Shown in pieces: positions 3,561 through 17,032 of a stretch of 39,427 nucleotides of DNA. Origin of the DNA: a virus. The stretch spans positions 1 to 39,427 of the IMG/VR virus record IMGVR_UViG_3300036846_001124; one strand, written 5' to 3'. The number at the start of each line of letters is the position of its first letter. Within the stretch, counting starts at the first letter, position 1. Both the position numbers and the translations under genes were made by a program. The notes beneath the pieces were generated by a model. It had not been told where the DNA came from. It ran no database searches and was given only the letters and a program-made list of their open reading frames with translations.

Positions 3561-3589
3561 TTGCATTCTTTTGTAAAGCGTTGTAAAGT
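3561..3589 (+). promoter_or_regulatory. Phage promoter, TTGCAT-N17-TAAAGT
   Basis: TTGCAT at 3561-3566, 17 bases, TAAAGT at 3584-3589, about 55 bases before the first PEP-CTERM gene. A second TGTAAAG lies inside the spacer. Confidence 0.65.
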
Positions 3590-3642
3590 AGTTGCGTTGG
3601 GGTAATTTGGGGCTCATCCACCACACCTAGCACGGAGGTTCT

Positions 3643-4257
3643 ATGAAGAAACTACTCTTGGCGACCACGGCGGTCTTGGCATTTGCGACAAGCAATGCCA
3701 TGGCAGACGTTACAGTCCTCGATCAACTGAGCGGAACGGGCGACAACGTCGTCGCCGATTCCTCGAGCACCAACAGTGCTCTAGGTCATCTCAACGGCCA
3801 GCATCTTGATGTGGTTCGTTACACGAACCTATCGACCGGCTTTACGTTCGCTGCCAACGGCAACGACATAAAGATCGGCAACACCAATATGGTGACCGAC
3901 CAAGTGTTCGACCCGACCAACACCTTCGTAGTTGGTACCACGACGGAGGTGTTCAGTTTGACGGGCACCGGCGACGTGCATCTGGCCGTGAACGCCACGG
4001 ACGGAACGTTCAACTTTGATCTCGGCACCATCGGCAATGGCCAGTCCGGGTTCACGGTGAACGCCATCAACGGTGAAGTGATCAACTCGCTAACGCTCAC
4101 CGACTCCACCGGAGGTATACTTAGCTTCGAACACAACCGCATCGAAACGGCTGTGGCGGCTGTACCTGAGCCGGCGACCTGGGGCATGATGCTTCTAGGC
4201 TTTATCGGCCTAGGGTTTGCCTTCAAGAATAAGCGTCGCAAGGTAAGCTTCGCGTAG
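3643..4257 (+). CDS. PEP-CTERM sorting-domain protein 1
   Basis: 204 residues, ATG after ACGGAGG. Residues 1-21 are a Sec signal (ending AMADV). The body is rich in Thr, Asn, Gly and beta strands, typical of secreted surface or matrix proteins. The C-terminus has VPEPATWGMMLLGFIGLG then a hydrophobic segment and basic tail (KNKRRK): the complete PEP-CTERM signal, which in bacteria is recognised by exosortase after export. The phage would therefore depend on the host's exosortase. Followed at once by a second PEP-CTERM gene. Host-derived surface protein is the likely origin (inference). Confidence 0.9.
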   Translation: MKKLLLATTAVLAFATSNAMADVTVLDQLSGTGDNVVADSSSTNSALGHLNGQHLDVVRYTNLSTGFTFAANGNDIKIGNTNMVTDQVFDPTNTFVVGTTTEVFSLTGTGDVHLAVNATDGTFNFDLGTIGNGQSGFTVNAINGEVINSLTLTDSTGGILSFEHNRIETAVAAVPEPATWGMMLLGFIGLGFAFKNKRRKVSFA

Positions 4258-4295
4258 ATACAAACTTGGTCAGAGGTTGGCCCACCAAGAACGGG

Positions 4296-4313
4296 AGGGT
4301 GCCACGGCACCCT
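4296..4313 (+). other. Hairpin between the two PEP-CTERM genes
   Basis: Seven-base-pair stem AGGGTGC/GCACCCT with a four-base loop, in the 95-base gap between the genes, followed by TCTACC and no T-run. It may be an attenuator or mRNA-stability element. Confidence 0.35.
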
Positions 4314-4352
4314 TCTACCTATCCCAATCCCCACTACTATGGTGAGCTCAAG

Positions 4353-4997
4353 ATGAAAAAGCTCTTGCTAGCGAGCGTATTCGCTTTGGCGGTAGGTCCC
4401 GCACTTGCGGATGCAATCAACTTGACGGCGACTGTTGACGGAGTAGTGGCAGGCTCTGCCTCAAGCCCCGATGGCAGCTTGACTGTCACCAACCAGTCGT
4501 TCGGCGTATTCAATCTGAACTCGCTGAGCATCAATTCGGAGACGTTCCTGGCGCCTCCGGGCATTTTGTCCAGCAACACGCTGGACGTGGATCAAACCGC
4601 GACTGGCACTCACACGCTGGTCCTGGACATCACTGCAACCGGCCTCGCTGGGCCGAATGCCCTGCAAGACTTCCTGTCGTCATTTTCGGTGAGTGGCCAG
4701 ACGGCGGGATGGTCTGTGATTGAACGTACCACCATCAATGGCGTCACGCTTGCCACCACTCCGCTATTCACCGGAGTGTCTGACTCAGCGTTCTCCACCA
4801 ACGCTGCATTCGCAGGTACGCTGTTCACTGCCGATGAGCACTACACGATCACTTCGGTAGGGGAAGGCTCGTTCAACGGCGGTATTGATATCAGTGCCGC
4901 AGTGCCAGAGCCAGCGACCTGGGGCATGATGTTGCTCGGCTTTGTCGGGCTTGCGTTCATGTTCCGGCAGCAGCGCCGCAAGGTGTCGTTCGCGTAA
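4353..4997 (+). CDS. PEP-CTERM sorting-domain protein 2
   Basis: 214 residues from ATG at 4353; the frame is open 87 bases further upstream but the signal peptide MKKLLLASVFALAVGPALA fixes this start. The middle is a beta-rich, Thr/Ser-rich secreted domain. The C-terminus VPEPATWGMMLLGFVGLAF plus RQQRRKVSFA is a full PEP-CTERM signal, and the last residues RRKVSFA are identical to those of the upstream gene, showing that the two sorting tails share recent ancestry though their bodies differ. A strong terminator follows. Confidence 0.9.
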   Translation: MKKLLLASVFALAVGPALADAINLTATVDGVVAGSASSPDGSLTVTNQSFGVFNLNSLSINSETFLAPPGILSSNTLDVDQTATGTHTLVLDITATGLAGPNALQDFLSSFSVSGQTAGWSVIERTTINGVTLATTPLFTGVSDSAFSTNAAFAGTLFTADEHYTITSVGEGSFNGGIDISAAVPEPATWGMMLLGFVGLAFMFRQQRRKVSFA

Positions 4998-5020
4998 GGA
5001 CTCATGGCATAAAAGAGGGG

Positions 5021-5050
5021 AAGGGGCCGGATGAAAGTCCGGCCCTTTTT
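5021..5050 (+). terminator. Intrinsic terminator after PEP-CTERM operon
   Basis: Stem GGGCCGGA/TCCGGCCC extended by AAG/TTT pairs, six-base loop, then five Ts. Ends the PEP-CTERM transcription unit just before the Tas promoter. Confidence 0.9.
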
Positions 5051-5111: not shown

Positions 5112-6128
5112 ATGGCAGAACTTGATCTAATTAGAATAGCAGTCAAAGGCTGTTATGATCTACAAATGCTGCGAATGCAGACCGGCTTGCGGCTTGCATC
5201 GAATTTTCGTGCTAAACTGAAAAAGCACAAAGATGACATTAAGGAAACCGAGGATGGTGAACTTAGTGCGGTTGCTCAGAGCATCCTGGACGAGCTCCGT
5301 GAATCTTACAAAATGCTGACGAGCGGCATTGCCAGGAACAGGACCTTACCAGGTAAAGAAGGATTCATAGGCAACCCATTGATTTCTACGTATGCCGAAC
5401 TGGTCATGGTCCACCAATTTACAGTATTGGAACGAGAAGAGAAAGGACACTTCCTTCAGTTAGAAACCTTGTTGGCAGATGTTCCTATCTTTACAGAGTA
5501 TCTGACTAATGTGAGGGGTATCGGAGCTGCGATGGCCGGTGTGCTGGTCACCAAGTTTGATCCACAAAAAGCACGGCATGTTTCTAGCTTCTGGAAGCTT
5601 GCCGGGTTGGATGTAGTGATTGTGGACTGTGGTGGCTGTGAAGGCAGGGGTGAAGATGCTGCCGGTAATCTGTGTCAGTATTGCAAAGGTTCTGGCATTT
5701 GGGGTGAGGGCAGATCACGTAAGGAAAGCCACCTTGTTGAGCGCACGTATACGAATAAGGATGGTGAGGAAGCCACGCGCATGGGCTTGACCTATGACCC
5801 GTGGCTGAAAACCAAGCTGTTCGTGCTAGCCGGGTCATTCATGAGGTCCAAGAGCCCTTGGGCTGATGTGTACCGAAACTATAAGAATCGTATCAGCTCA
5901 GATGTGGCCCGTGATAAGGTTAGTGTCGGCGAGTGGAAACTTCGCAATAAACGTGGTGAGATTGTGGAGCACTTGTGGACACCTGGGCGCATCGATAACA
6001 GTGCCAAGCGCTACATGATCAAGATGTTCCTCATCGAGTTCTGGACCAAGTGGCGGACCATGGAAGGTCTACCGGCACCACCTCCATACCATGAAGGTAT
6101 GCTTGGTCACCGGCATGCAGCGGAGTAA
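5112..6128 (+). CDS. Tas-like Nop/IS110-related RNA-guided protein, nuclease-free (TasA type)
   Basis: 338 residues after AGGAGG. A helical N-terminus (RIAVKGCYDLQMLRMQTGLRL) leads to a coiled region, then VRGIG (134-138) with HVSSFWKLAGL (156-166), the helix-hairpin-helix signature shared by IS110-type transposases and the Nop-like fold. The C-terminal block AKRYMIKMFLIEFW...WRTMEGLP...PPPY...LGHR (298-334) is typical of stand-alone relatives often annotated as transposase. An insert with C173/C176 and C188/C191 is a zinc knuckle. No RuvC DEDD or HNH residues are visible, so it should bind and not cut. In published TIGR-Tas systems Nop-domain Tas proteins bind 36-nt tigRNAs from dual-spacer arrays; here such an array lies 335 bases downstream. 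Assignment to Tas rests on family recognition plus this neighbour. Confidence 0.8.
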   Translation: MAELDLIRIAVKGCYDLQMLRMQTGLRLASNFRAKLKKHKDDIKETEDGELSAVAQSILDELRESYKMLTSGIARNRTLPGKEGFIGNPLISTYAELVMVHQFTVLEREEKGHFLQLETLLADVPIFTEYLTNVRGIGAAMAGVLVTKFDPQKARHVSSFWKLAGLDVVIVDCGGCEGRGEDAAGNLCQYCKGSGIWGEGRSRKESHLVERTYTNKDGEEATRMGLTYDPWLKTKLFVLAGSFMRSKSPWADVYRNYKNRISSDVARDKVSVGEWKLRNKRGEIVEHLWTPGRIDNSAKRYMIKMFLIEFWTKWRTMEGLPAPPPYHEGMLGHRHAAE

Positions 6129-6131
6129 GCG

Positions 6132-6314
6132 ATGGATGATGGCGAAAAACGTGCTGCTGCTCGAGCAATCTATGAGGAATACGACTACATGGGTGCTGGA
6201 AACAGGACAGCGTGGGGCAATCTACCTGCACACGAGCAACAGACCTATTTGCAGTTAGCAGCAGCCGCTCTACGCGCCGTTCAGCGACACAGACGCGGTG
6301 AGTTCAATGGGTGA
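6132..6314 (+). CDS. Small hypothetical protein between Tas-like gene and array (60 aa)
   Basis: Starts four bases after the Tas-like stop, with GGAGTAAGCG acting as ribosome site, so it is in the same operon. Two helical parts: residues 1-20 (GEKRAAARAIYEEYDY) and 36-56 (QQTYLQLAAAALRAVQRHRR), separated by a WGNLP turn. This helix-W-LP-helix pattern is seen in short phage proteins of unknown function. Its position suggests, but does not prove, a link with the array. Confidence 0.55.
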   Translation: MDDGEKRAAARAIYEEYDYMGAGNRTAWGNLPAHEQQTYLQLAAAALRAVQRHRRGEFNG

Positions 6315-6462
6315 TATGCAATGATCATGGAGTAACGCCAATCCAGACATTACCCCCTCTCGTGCGTGAAGCACACCAATTGCTGCTGATCACACAGCAG
6401 ACTGTCAAATAGCGAGAAACCCAGAAAGCAGGGGCTGGAGAACCCGGTCACTGCACACCCTA
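6315..6462 (+). other. Array leader with degenerate first repeat
   Basis: No ORF is supported in this 148-base gap. It holds a small hairpin (CTGCTG at 6383-6388, CAGCAG at 6395-6400, loop ATCACA) and, from 6411, a degraded unit: AGCGAG runs straight into AAACCCA, and AGAACCCGG at 6439 resembles a loop repeat, 52 bases before the first intact edge repeat. No terminator is seen, so the array can be read from the upstream promoter at 5059. Confidence 0.6.
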
Positions 6463-7929
6463 AGCGAGCCACTCTTTCATAGAAACCCACGCTGACGAAG
6501 CGAGCCACTGTCACTCAGTAATCCAAGGCGCGAAAGCGAGCCAAAGCCGTAAAGAAATCCAGAAGCTGAAAGCGAGCCAAAGCCGTTAAGAAATCCATGG
6601 TGCAATAGCGAGCCAGATAAGGTAAGAAATCCACAATGGAGCAGCGAGCCACAGTTATCTAGAAATCCAAGTTTGTCAAGCGAGCCACCTTCTAAGAGCG
6701 AGCCAACTCAATCTAAAAATCCAGGCTGAGGAAGCGAGCCATAGCCGACAAAGAAATCCACACAGTGCTAGCGAGCCATACTTCGGTAGAAACCCGTGTA
6801 GAGAAAGCGAGCCATGGTTCATCAGAAACCCATCGTTCCAATAGCGAGCCAGAACGTCCTAGTAATCCAGGTTTAACAAGCGAGCCAAAATATATCAGTC
6901 ACCCGATATCGTTCAAGCGAGCCATCGAATACAGAAGCCCGTAAAGGTAGAGCGAGCCACGCCCGTTCAGAAATCCCTCACCATCGAGCGAGTCAAATCA
7001 CCACAGAAATCCATGCATGATAAGCGAGCCATACAGGAACAGGACACCAAATTCCACAAGCGAGCCAACCTGAGCCAGAAAACCGAGCATCATGAGCGAG
7101 CCAAGTCGCCAAGAGACCCAATGAAGGAAAGCGAGCCAATGATCATTAGATATCCATGTGCTATAAGCGAGCCATAACGAGCCAGAAATCCATTACGTTG
7201 AAGCGAGCCAGGGTTATAAAGACATCCAGAGAGCCGAAGCGAGCCAAAATACATTAGGAATCCGATGTGCCGAAGCGAGCCATCATTTACTAGAAACCCA
7301 AGCAAGCAAAAGCGAGCCATGAAGGAAAAGTAACCCATATGTGCAAAGCGAGCCAGACTTCGAAAGAAACCCAAAGTCGATCAGCGAGCCACGAACGAAA
7401 AGTGACCCAGAGAAGACCAGCGAGCCAACGTGAGCCAGAAAGCCAAGCATCATTAGCGAGCCAAGGTCTTTTAGAAATCCATAAAATGAAAGCGAGCCAC
7501 GATCCCAGAAATCCGTAAATGCAAAGCGAGCCACTCGCGACTAGACACCCAAGATGAAGAAGCGAGCCAAAGCAATACAGAAACCCAATTACTGGAAGCG
7601 AGCCAATGTTTACGAGAAACCCAGAATGCCACAGCGAGCCAACATCAATTAGTAATCCTGACGGCGTAAGCGAGCCACTTAAATCTAGGCACCCACGAAC
7701 GATCAGCGAGCCGGAAAACTGAAGAAACCCACATCCCGACAGCGAGCCAGCTACTATCAGATACCCATGGTCCGAAAGCGAGCCAAGCTTGTCTAGAAAC
7801 CCAGAAGTTTTAAGCGAGCCAGGACCTACTAGGAATCCAGAAACGACGAGCGAGCCAGCGAAAAACAGATACCCATGAAGAAAGAGCGAGCCAGCAGCAA
7901 TTAGAAATCCATGACTAAAAAGCGAGCCA
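6463..7929 (+). repeat. TIGR-like dual-spacer guide RNA array (42 edge repeats)
   Basis: 42 copies of AGCGAGCCA, 40 exact (variants AGCGAGTCA at 6987, AGCGAGCCG at 7705). Of 41 intervals, 33 are exactly 36 bases, four are 37, two 35, one 34 and one 18. Within each unit a second, looser 9-mer (consensus AGAAAYCCA) sits in the middle, so the plan is edge repeat, 9-base spacer A, loop repeat, 9-base spacer B: 40 dual-spacer units plus one half unit, about 81 spacers, almost all unique. This equals the published TIGR layout, where the array is processed to 36-nt tigRNAs whose two spacers address the two DNA strands. CRISPR is excluded by the short repeats and spacers. The likely strand is plus, as for the upstream Tas-like gene; which nine bases bound the mature RNA cannot be told from sequence. 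Confidence 0.9.
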
Positions 7930-8180
7930 GCCAATATCTTGTCAACCGGGTACCTACCGGGTACAATGTTATCAAGTGCGACGAGGATTTTAACTTTATG
8001 GAAGTGTATGCTGTAGTAGAGGAGCGTGGTAAGTGGTTCTGCTCATGCCCCAATACGATGGCGGCTGAATGCAGGCATATAAAAATGATAGACATCTTTA
8101 AGAAGAAAAGGGCAATAGACAAGGGCATGTTCTTTTGTTATGATACCAAAGAATGGACTAAAGTTAAGGGATTTAACTAG
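7911..8180 (+). CDS. SWIM zinc-finger protein starting inside the array
   Basis: 89 residues. FCSCPNTMAAECRHIKMI (about residues 43-60) is a SWIM motif, CxC followed by CxH, preceded by the usual strands (YLVNRVPTGYNVIK, YAVVEERGKW). SWIM fingers bind zinc and are found in proteins that touch DNA or partner proteins. The only in-frame start giving the full fold is the ATG at 7911, in the last spacer, so residues 4-6 come from the final edge repeat. No good ribosome site precedes it; an internal ATG at 7998 would remove the first strand. The stop lies in an 11-base-pair hairpin (8170-8196). A partner role with the array is inference from position. Confidence 0.7.
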   Translation: MTKKRASQYLVNRVPTGYNVIKCDEDFNFMEVYAVVEERGKWFCSCPNTMAAECRHIKMIDIFKKKRAIDKGMFFCYDTKEWTKVKGFN

Positions 8181-10065: not shown

Positions 10066-11751
10066 ATGACATCCGACAGTACATTTACCACGTTGTCGGG
10101 GGGATTGCAAGCAAAAATTATTAATGATTTAATGGATTTGTTCCGGAGTAATAGCCGGGGATATGGAGTGGGGGAATTTCAGGGCGCAAGGTTTGACGAG
10201 GATAAGAATAAGTGGATTCCTGGACATGTGCGGTGGACCTGGGGCGAGACCAGCGAGCGCGAATGGCATGACCATTTAGCCGGTGTGAAGCTATTGGGTC
10301 AGGGAGTACTTTGCGACGATAATAAGGTCTGGTATGCCTGTTTAGATATTGATAGCTATGATATTGATTACCACGAGGAAATGGCCAAGATAAAGCGCAG
10401 CGGTCTACCGCTGGTGGTGTATCGGACGAAGAGTGGTGGATTGCGGATTGTCATATTTTTCAGTGAAGGAATAGATAGCGAGCTGGTTATACCAAGGATG
10501 CGAAGAGTCGCATCCTTATTGGGATATGCAGGCTGCGAAATCTTCCCTAAACAATCAAAATTGGATGTATCGAATGGCGATTGCCCATCATGGATCTATA
10601 TGCCGTATGGAGGAACGCATGACATGTTCCCGGAACAAGGTTGCATGAACGAGGGTGGTGGATTGATGGAATTGGAGGAGGGAATAGAGTACGCTAAAGA
10701 GAAAAGAATAACACAATCAGAGTTCGTAAAACTGTTTACCGCCGAGGAGCACGCAAAGGCTAATGGGAAGGCTAATGGCCGGAAACATCCGCGTGGGTCG
10801 TGGGTCCAGGAAGAGAGTTACGAGACAACCATAAACACGATGTTTTGGGATGGTCCACCTTGTCTGTGGACTATTTCACATGCAAAGTCCCATGAAATGC
10901 AAAATAATTTCTTATTCAATGTAGCCATGTTTCTTAGGAAAAAATATCCTGAGAATTGGGACAAGGCATTGGAGTGGGTCAATTATAATGTGCTTCAGCC
11001 GGTGGGTGATAGAGATAAGTTGAATAGTCTTATTAAACGTGAGCCCGATAAGAACTATTTGTGTCAACAAGAACCCATATGCTCGCATTGTATTTCCCAT
11101 ATGTGTCGTCGTCAGCCGTATGGCGTAGGAAATGACGGTACTGGAGTTGATTATCATGAACTAGCAATTACGATTATAGATAGGGAACCAAATATTTTCT
11201 TTGTGAGTATTGGTGACAAACGAATTCAATGCACATTTGATGAATTGTGGCATCAGCACAAATTTCAGGTCAAGTGTGGTGATCATGGTATTTCTGCCCC
11301 GCAGACAATGAAGAAAGTAGAGTGGGAAAATATTATACGGCAGAATACAGAGAAAGCGACGCATGCTCCACCGTCACGAGTGATACGAACCAATGCTGAT
11401 GAGCTTGATTTATTAGCCAGATATTTCGGTGCTTATCTTCCAAGTTATATGCGTGTTGGTGAAAAGGAAGATGATAAAGTCCGGGTAAGGGATACAGAAA
11501 GAAGAATTTACTTTAAAGAACAGAGATTGTTGGATTATTGCCGTGGATTATCAGGTGGTGGAAATCTAGCATTGTCCATGCGATGGTTTATTCACAATAA
11601 ATGTGATTATCATCAGCAGGGTCCTGGGCATCGTGGATGGTGGCGCAGTACGTATTCTATACAATACGAAATGTTTGATGAGGAAGAATTAGGGAAATGG
11701 TTTGGAACAAATAATGGTGCTCAAAGTAAACAGGAGGAGATTAATCCATGA
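10066..11751 (+). CDS. Archaeo-eukaryotic-type (AEP) DNA primase
   Basis: 561 residues. D94 and D96 in CLDIDSY form the metal-binding motif of AEP primases; YRTKSGGLRIVIFF (119-132) is the second motif, and EIFPKQSKL (158-166) plus WIYMPYGG the third region. In the family the second motif usually reads SGG-x-H; here the position is Arg127. Residues 333-347 (CQQEPICSHCISHMC) form a four-cysteine zinc site followed by PYGVG, as in viral and plasmid primases. The last 200 residues are unrecognised and may be a winged-helix or helicase-contact domain. It would lay primers for phage replication; no helicase is in this window. AGGAGG precedes the start. Confidence 0.8.
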   Translation: MTSDSTFTTLSGGLQAKIINDLMDLFRSNSRGYGVGEFQGARFDEDKNKWIPGHVRWTWGETSEREWHDHLAGVKLLGQGVLCDDNKVWYACLDIDSYDIDYHEEMAKIKRSGLPLVVYRTKSGGLRIVIFFSEGIDSELVIPRMRRVASLLGYAGCEIFPKQSKLDVSNGDCPSWIYMPYGGTHDMFPEQGCMNEGGGLMELEEGIEYAKEKRITQSEFVKLFTAEEHAKANGKANGRKHPRGSWVQEESYETTINTMFWDGPPCLWTISHAKSHEMQNNFLFNVAMFLRKKYPENWDKALEWVNYNVLQPVGDRDKLNSLIKREPDKNYLCQQEPICSHCISHMCRRQPYGVGNDGTGVDYHELAITIIDREPNIFFVSIGDKRIQCTFDELWHQHKFQVKCGDHGISAPQTMKKVEWENIIRQNTEKATHAPPSRVIRTNADELDLLARYFGAYLPSYMRVGEKEDDKVRVRDTERRIYFKEQRLLDYCRGLSGGGNLALSMRWFIHNKCDYHQQGPGHRGWWRSTYSIQYEMFDEEELGKWFGTNNGAQSKQEEINP

Positions 11752-16514: not shown

Positions 16515-16721
16515 TTATCTTCTACCCTTCGACGGACAAGCAATGTCGTCAGGGTAACGTTCACAGAAGTCCTGGCCCTGTTCAATGATATGCTTTCGCT
16601 CGGCATCCTTACTCATAGGTGCAACCTTTGGATCAGGGGACTGACCCTGTACACGAAAGGCATCGCTGGAACACCCGGCTAAAGCGATCGCTGCGATTAG
16701 AACGAGTGCCTGAATCGCCAT
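16515..16721 (-). CDS. Small lipoprotein (68 aa)
   Basis: Start at the second in-frame ATG, 16721, six bases after AGGAGG; an ATG at 16727 touches that ribosome site. Hydrophobic signal followed by lipobox IALAGC, so Cys17 would be lipidated and the protein anchored in the periplasm. The mature part has two further cysteines (DFCERYPDDIAC). It overlaps the end of the PEP-CTERM gene by 25 bases. Phage lipoproteins often act in superinfection exclusion or as spanin partners; neither is shown here. Confidence 0.7.
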   Translation of the reverse strand: MAIQALVLIAAIALAGCSSDAFRVQGQSPDPKVAPMSKDAERKHIIEQGQDFCERYPDDIACPSKGRR

Positions 16722-17032
16722 CGCCATCCTCCTAGCATTGCAAATCCGGTCAGCAGCATAGCCCAAGTCGCGGGTTCAGGCACAGCAGGCTGGACATAGG
16801 TTATGCTTGTAACCTGCCACCCGCCGGGGAAAACGCTGGTGCTATACCCGGTCGGCTCGAACGACACAGCATAGGGATCCGCCGGATCCATCGCCTCCGC
16901 AGCAAAGTATAGCGCCATTCCCGATGGCTCCCAAAAGGGATTCACGGTGATGTCGACGATGATGGCGATCGTATCGGCGCGTGCTGGCACGGTCACCAGC
17001 ATCAGCGCAGCGATGAGTAAGAGTTTTTTCAC
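16697..17032 (-). CDS. PEP-CTERM sorting-domain protein 3
   Basis: 111 residues, GTG start after AAGGA. Sec signal MKKLLLIAALMLVTVPARA, a short beta-rich body, then AVPEPATWAMLLTGFAMLGG and a basic tail (WRWRFRHSF): a full PEP-CTERM exosortase signal. The tail differs from those at 3643 and 4353 (WAMLLTGF against WGMMLLGF), so it was acquired or evolved separately. It sits in a leftward operon next to a lipoprotein gene. Confidence 0.85.
   Translation of the reverse strand: MKKLLLIAALMLVTVPARADTIAIIVDITVNPFWEPSGMALYFAAEAMDPADPYAVSFEPTGYSTSVFPGGWQVTSITYVQPAVPEPATWAMLLTGFAMLGGWRWRFRHSF

Follow-up and report, generated by a model that had tools for sequence, protein, structure and literature searches.

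Phages encode PEP-CTERM proteins with a three-part architecture (signal peptide, body and C-terminal sorting tail), and our computational comparison demonstrated that the bodies are exchanged between phages while the signal peptides and tails around them differ. The proteins came to light in a 39,427-base IMG/VR virus record, which was analysed whole (the window) and whose gene content includes a terminase, a portal, a head-maturation protein, a primase and a tail lysozyme. The original prediction for this DNA had pointed to three PEP-CTERM proteins, two of them encoded in tandem. These genes are confirmed here, and the interpretation attached to them is supported in part. What goes beyond it is that the bodies are exchangeable and shared among phages and that each phage keeps to one tail type; this modularity is the real find. 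In bacteria, PEP-CTERM proteins are known as components of the surface and the matrix, and the system was defined there by the genomic co-occurrence of exosortase and PEP-CTERM proteins. Our literature search, with subscription journals mostly outside its coverage, found no report of phage-encoded PEP-CTERM proteins, including in the available part of PMC12642866.

The genes and the elements around them are located in the window as follows.

3571..3590, plus strand: two direct copies of a phage-wide motif (TTGTAAAGCG TTGTAAAGTA), putative promoter or operator, 52 bases 5' of gene 1
3643..4257, plus strand: PEP-CTERM gene 1, 204 aa, called from its PF07589 score (26.2 bits), translation and body relatives
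3643-3705, 3706-4152 and 4153-4257, plus strand: signal peptide, body 1 and sorting tail of gene 1
4353..4997, plus strand: PEP-CTERM gene 2, 214 aa, called from its PF07589 score (31.1 bits), translation and body relatives
4353-4409, 4410-4895 and 4896-4997, plus strand: signal peptide, body 2 and sorting tail of gene 2
5019..5050, plus strand: terminator-like hairpin 3' of gene 2, -24.1 kcal/mol
16697..17032, minus strand: PEP-CTERM gene 3, 111 aa, with a short body and a GTG start, called from PF07589 (26.3 bits) and NF035944 (35.5 bits)

In the window DNA, Pfam model PF07589 has exactly three sites, all above its cut-off of 20.7 bits: 4159-4236 (plus strand, 30.3 bits), 4899-4979 (plus strand, 35.6 bits) and 16715-16786 (minus strand, 28.9 bits). 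None of the 14 control genomes was positive. The whole proteins of genes 1, 2 and 3 exceed the same cut-off with 26.2, 31.1 and 26.3 bits, and they also pass TIGR02595 (23.5, 22.4 and 19.5 bits; cut-off 16). The PEPxxWA-CTERM model NF035944 (cut-off 35) accepts gene 3 at 35.5 bits, and gene 1 (33.9) and gene 2 (32.7) are slightly under. The predicted order of VPEPATW, hydrophobic segment and basic end is confirmed in all three proteins, as is the position of the third gene on the other strand, where it sits ahead of the terminase gene; no relatives of gene 3 were found in viral contigs. The signal peptides, each a basic start followed by a hydrophobic stretch, were assigned by inspection and a hydrophobicity rule, with no dedicated predictor. 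For gene 2, a start at TTG 4266 was considered and replaced by ATG 4353 (MKKLLLASV...).

Translation also bore out that the proteins of genes 1 and 2 share the C-terminal end RRKVSFA, and the claim that their bodies are unrelated is right at the sequence level (BLASTP E = 0.37). The whole proteins align with each other at E = 1e-20, chiefly via the signal peptide and the tail. A recent gene conversion that homogenised the two tails is not supported, because they share just 71% DNA identity.

The exchange of bodies is evident from the comparison of the window with viral record G002 (locus L005), in which the gene order is reversed. The DNA of body 1 is 94% identical between the two (420 of 447 positions), against 66% for the signal peptide, 72% for the tail and 45%, the level of shuffled sequence, for the flanks. 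Among codons for the same residue, 126 of 139 are identical in the body, 2 of 10 in the signal peptide and 13 of 25 in the tail (Fisher p 6e-9). Body 2 is 89% identical at the DNA level, and the corresponding codon counts are 110 of 157, 0 of 9 and 10 of 23 (p 8e-5). Taking both genes together, signal peptides and tails are 50-72% alike and the flanks are at chance. The same codon comparison for body 1 with G001 gave p 3e-8; with G008, the gene of body 2 is similar in both signal peptide (82%) and body (79%), and a swap is not seen in this comparison. The reciprocal swap occurred in the second surface gene of the sister phages L069 and L072, in which the upstream region (71%), signal peptide (73%), tail (80%) and downstream region (68%) are alike and the bodies are only 46% identical (shuffle mean 44%, maximum 48%). 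The L072 body scores 46 bits, under the cut-off of 50, against the FxDxF PEP-CTERM family over the body and has a VPGP tail where the family has PEP.

Body 1 was found with PEP, PLPA and VPGP tails in different phages. Its tree requires three changes of tail type (the minimum possible is two) and rejects a single clade for PLPA tails (p 0.003) and for VPGP tails (p 0.019); a change of tail type is nevertheless rare, because the types are otherwise clustered on the tree. The PLPA tails of body-1 relatives are built from the same three parts as VPLPA-CTERM (TIGR03370), but their top score, 17.9 bits (L067), lies below that model's cut-off of 25.35. Within a phage, the tail type does not vary: it was uniform in 16/16 contigs with at least two surface genes (15/15 minus near copies) and, once loci found by tail patterns were added, in all 24 contigs (51 genes). 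Shuffled assignments gave a mean of 8.2 uniform contigs and a maximum of 18 in 100,000, figures that overstate independence, given the relatedness of some contigs (L069/L072, G006/G008) and the part that tails and bodies played in finding the loci. Clustering of 155 proteins, near copies included, produced 46 body clusters; at least two members are present in 16 of them, and 5 of these 16 contain more than one tail type. Rows left out of the counts were the near copies G003, c077, c068, c071 and L289, an antisense false match in L272, and 16 of 135 ORFs that had a tail motif without a signal peptide; double labels PLPA/VPGP were assigned to VPGP. The PEP pattern itself was present in 54 IMG/VR stretches. 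We see an even balance for and against the broader proposal that phages share a phage-only pool of bodies, recombined between host-fitted signal peptides and exosortase-type tails, by which one body could be displayed on hosts with different enzymes and which would amount to a general modular system of surface conversion.

The tandem pair has regulatory elements of its own. The motif TTGTAAAGTA, with up to one mismatch, has 12 sites in the window (for example 3581, 5079, 8780, 14796 and 19667) against 2.2 expected; 11 of the 12 are intergenic, as placed by an ORF map of likely genes, and TATTTT or TATATT often follows. One copy ends 52 bases 5' of gene 1 and another 23 bases 5' of the gene after the pair, and we infer a promoter or operator role for the motif. 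Among the fetched loci, the exact motif occurs in one other contig only, that of a sister phage (L069 = L268), ahead of its third surface gene. The folding energy of the hairpin at 5019-5050 (-24.1 kcal/mol) corresponds to z -4.7 and was equalled by no shuffle. With the phage-wide motif upstream and the terminator hairpin downstream, the pair seems to be transcribed as a phage unit of its own.

PEP-CTERM genes are common in bacteria, and the G+C content of the pair (0.56) lies above that of most of the window; both would suit passenger host genes without a phage function, or a misassembly. The distribution of the bodies argues against such an origin. Body 1 occurs in 21 IMG/VR loci and body 2 in 5. 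The first searches reached 12 viral records, 7 of them with two PEP-CTERM sites near each other, and the pairing varies: body 1 is combined with body 2 in the window, the order is reversed in G002 and G003, and body 2 is placed after other bodies in G008, G009 and G010. Named phage functions were recognized in 7 of 10 records (20 proteins tested), and G001 is without a phage hallmark of its own. G002 and G003 have 36 proteins in common, and G008 and G006 have 18; the upstream flank of the pair contains a 187-aa ORF (at 2724) with a homologue in G003.

In bacteria, a pattern scan of genome contigs for body 1 (17-row alignment) returned 60 stretches, none of which was confirmed, and a scan with the gene 2 protein (P0002) returned 72 loci, all of which match the tail alone at E <= 1e-3. 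Body 2 alone, run on those 72 loci, gave no profile match at E <= 1 and a single stretch, in L083, at E 0.03. These scans rely on exact peptide patterns and could have overlooked distant relatives in bacteria. A profile search with body 1 found nothing in 385 Alphaproteobacteria and one partial match, 40 residues long with E 0.0046, in 398 genomes of the phylum; the positive control recovered 5/5 viral records, G002 being the source of an alignment member and the others close relatives. Plasmids had no match to the gene 1 protein (P0001) or to an L070 relative, and catalogued phages had none to P0001 and one VPGP relative at E 0.01, or to P0002 even at E 10. A near DNA match to window positions 1-25000 was also sought among them and none was found.

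The original prediction had itself named wrong assembly of bacterial DNA as the finding that would overturn it. We reject an assembly chimera: the genes on either side, the 187-aa ORF at 2724 and a TIGR-Tas locus downstream, are of phage type, the pair carries the phage-wide motif, and the bodies recur in IMG/VR contigs of many metagenome numbers. Since they recur in viral contigs and have no credible relative in the bacterial genomes searched, the pair is not misjoined bacterial DNA. The bodies are, moreover, under purifying selection (dN/dS 0.03-0.31 over 13 pairs). Together with the occurrence of the same bodies in many viral contigs, their absence from the bacterial genomes searched (bar the one partial match) and the motif and terminator around the pair, this makes passenger genes or misassembly very improbable.

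Exosortase (PF09721) was found in 0/26 viral records with such genes (the window and 25 further), which supports the predicted dependence on a host enzyme; this result speaks against the phage carrying the full system, not against its proteins being substrates. The enzyme is present in 116 of 147 Sphingomonadales genomes and in 7/7 genomes chosen for tails resembling those of the window, the outcome of the check on likely hosts that had been proposed with the prediction. Sphingomonadales also hold the most similar bacterial tails (64 of 72 loci as judged from record titles, in a scan with the window's own tail octamer), and this similarity suggests them as the host group. The terminase and portal of the window are 78-85% identical to those of the sister phages L069 and L072, and the named phages closest by the same two proteins (42-47% identity) are Shewanella phage QDWS, Pantoea phage PdC23 and Klebsiella phages, a similarity that does not fix the host. 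The terminase matched 10 of 337 Alphaproteobacteria, at best with 39% identity over half of the query, and we assign no host from this.

The phage proteins resemble those of the bacterial PEP-CTERM/exosortase (EpsH) system in having a signal peptide, PEP motif, helix and basic end, and in the presence of several unrelated bodies per tail type in one genome. Unlike that system, they are encoded by phages without the enzyme, and their bodies are absent from the bacterial genomes searched and traded among phages between different tails. Within each phage the tails match the host type, as would also be the case for sorting decoys that occupy the host exosortase, starve the host's own PEP-CTERM proteins and alter the surface by loss. 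We regard decoys as quite improbable, because purifying selection acts on the bodies (dN/dS 0.03-0.31) and they pass from phage to phage without their tails, so that the function resides in the body.

The model of body 1 (pLDDT 95) is an all-beta domain whose first Foldseek matches in the PDB are CBM29 modules (E 2.8e-4). The likeness is limited by a TM score of about 0.44, an identity of 8-15% and a body-1 alignment in which no Trp is conserved. Fold comparison gave Z 7.3-8.3 for CBM29 (models that lack clear relatives usually reach 7-8), 9.3 for the C-terminal part of Vip1 and 8.2 for the C-terminal part of the CBA120 tailspike TSP4 (VIA match). For the model of body 2 (pLDDT 72), the matches include carbohydrate-binding and adhesin domains among others, none of them stronger than background. 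BFVD contained no fold match at E <= 0.001. Judging by these models, the bodies are possibly beta-sandwich-like and glycan binding. A relationship of body 1 to the flocculation protein PepA (NF033554) was rejected: the whole-protein E-values (3.8e-6 to 0.015) are lost when the bodies alone are scanned, so the scores stem mainly from the signal peptide and tail.

The literature reports that the Aquincola PEP-CTERM protein PepA moves exopolysaccharide from the soluble to the cell-bound state and causes floc formation (PMC9850573), and it associates PEP-CTERM proteins with exopolysaccharide loci (PMC1569441). The CBM29-like fold of body 1, the selection on the bodies and the retention of exopolysaccharide by PepA lead us to a tentative best explanation, to which we give a little less than even credence: the pair may be a phage accessory ('moron'-like) unit for two host-displayed proteins with glycan-binding bodies, by which receptors are masked or exopolysaccharide is retained. 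Given the match of body 1 to TSP4, the proteins could instead form a coat on new virions or serve to tether or release these at the cell surface. This is improbable: the genes lie outside the structural gene block of the window, a sorting tail is unexpected on a virion protein, and the position in the sister phages, adjoining the terminase gene on the opposite strand, also looks accessory. Rather unlikely, too, is a role in matrix remodelling, in which the proteins would be secreted into the exopolysaccharide and infected or lysogenised cells would aggregate or stay in a biofilm, aiding the spread or survival of the phage. The CBM-like fold of body 1 would fit such a role, as would the link to exopolysaccharide loci (PMC1569441) and floc formation by PepA (PMC9850573), but the PepA-like scores do not survive scanning of the bodies alone, and the bodies, which fall into 46 clusters in a set of 155 proteins, seem more diverse than a single matrix role requires.

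According to the accessory-unit explanation, both proteins would be exported through the host Sec pathway, and the C-terminal helix would keep each of them at the inner membrane until the host exosortase cuts at the PEP site and releases the protein to the cell surface or the exopolysaccharide. There the bodies would most likely bind surface glycans and either mask receptors or keep exopolysaccharide on the cell, and masking would weaken the adsorption of competing phages (superinfection exclusion). Recombination would insert a phage-owned body between two end parts, signal peptide and sorting tail, that suit the current host. Of these steps, we infer exosortase processing, glycan binding and masking. 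Superinfection-exclusion envelope proteins occur in phages, for example the lipoproteins of T5 and P1-like phages. In both cases accessory phage genes encode exported proteins, and the lipoproteins can block adsorption or entry. However, these lipoproteins use lipid anchors, whereas the proteins described here have C-terminal exosortase-type tails, uniform per phage.

A phage-owned, exchangeable set of PEP-CTERM proteins links phage biology with the exosortase systems of environmental bacteria, and the trade in bodies with host-suited ends suggests a virus-owned toolkit for redecorating infected bacteria. Surface conversion becomes directly testable with one body and two tails, and the tail type of a viral contig may help to indicate its host.

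Proteins with VPGPxxGAGxPG tails are common among viral contigs: the VPGP pattern occurs in at least 120 stretches of IMG/VR (loci L215-L294). In bacteria, the VPGP tail was found in 1 of 289 Alphaproteobacteria, with a subset of candidates scored per genome, and the VPGP tails of 7 viral proteins had no match among the NCBIfam sorting-signal models. The tail hints at a sorting signal still in need of its enzyme. At positions 1342-2557 of L155, in an alphaproteobacterial genome, a small MPGPIAGAGLP-tailed protein adjoins an exosortase/archaeosortase-like gene (16.8 bits, below the cut-off of 23), which is possibly the cognate enzyme of the VPGP-type tail. The short LPXTG model accepts the small protein as well (18.6 bits; cut-off 15.9). 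PF09721 has no match in that genome.

Two further loci of the window deserve mention. A primase-like protein at 10066-11751 has a weak match to the TOTE conflict-system AEP domain (23.3 bits, below the cut-off of 27). Directly downstream of the tandem pair lies a TIGR-Tas system (5112-7946), with a Tas protein at 5112-6128 (NF052498, 115.8 bits; cut-off 100) and a dual-repeat array at 6464-7922; the array has a period of 36 and 42 edge repeats, exceeding the 5-15 units given as most common in PMC12045711.
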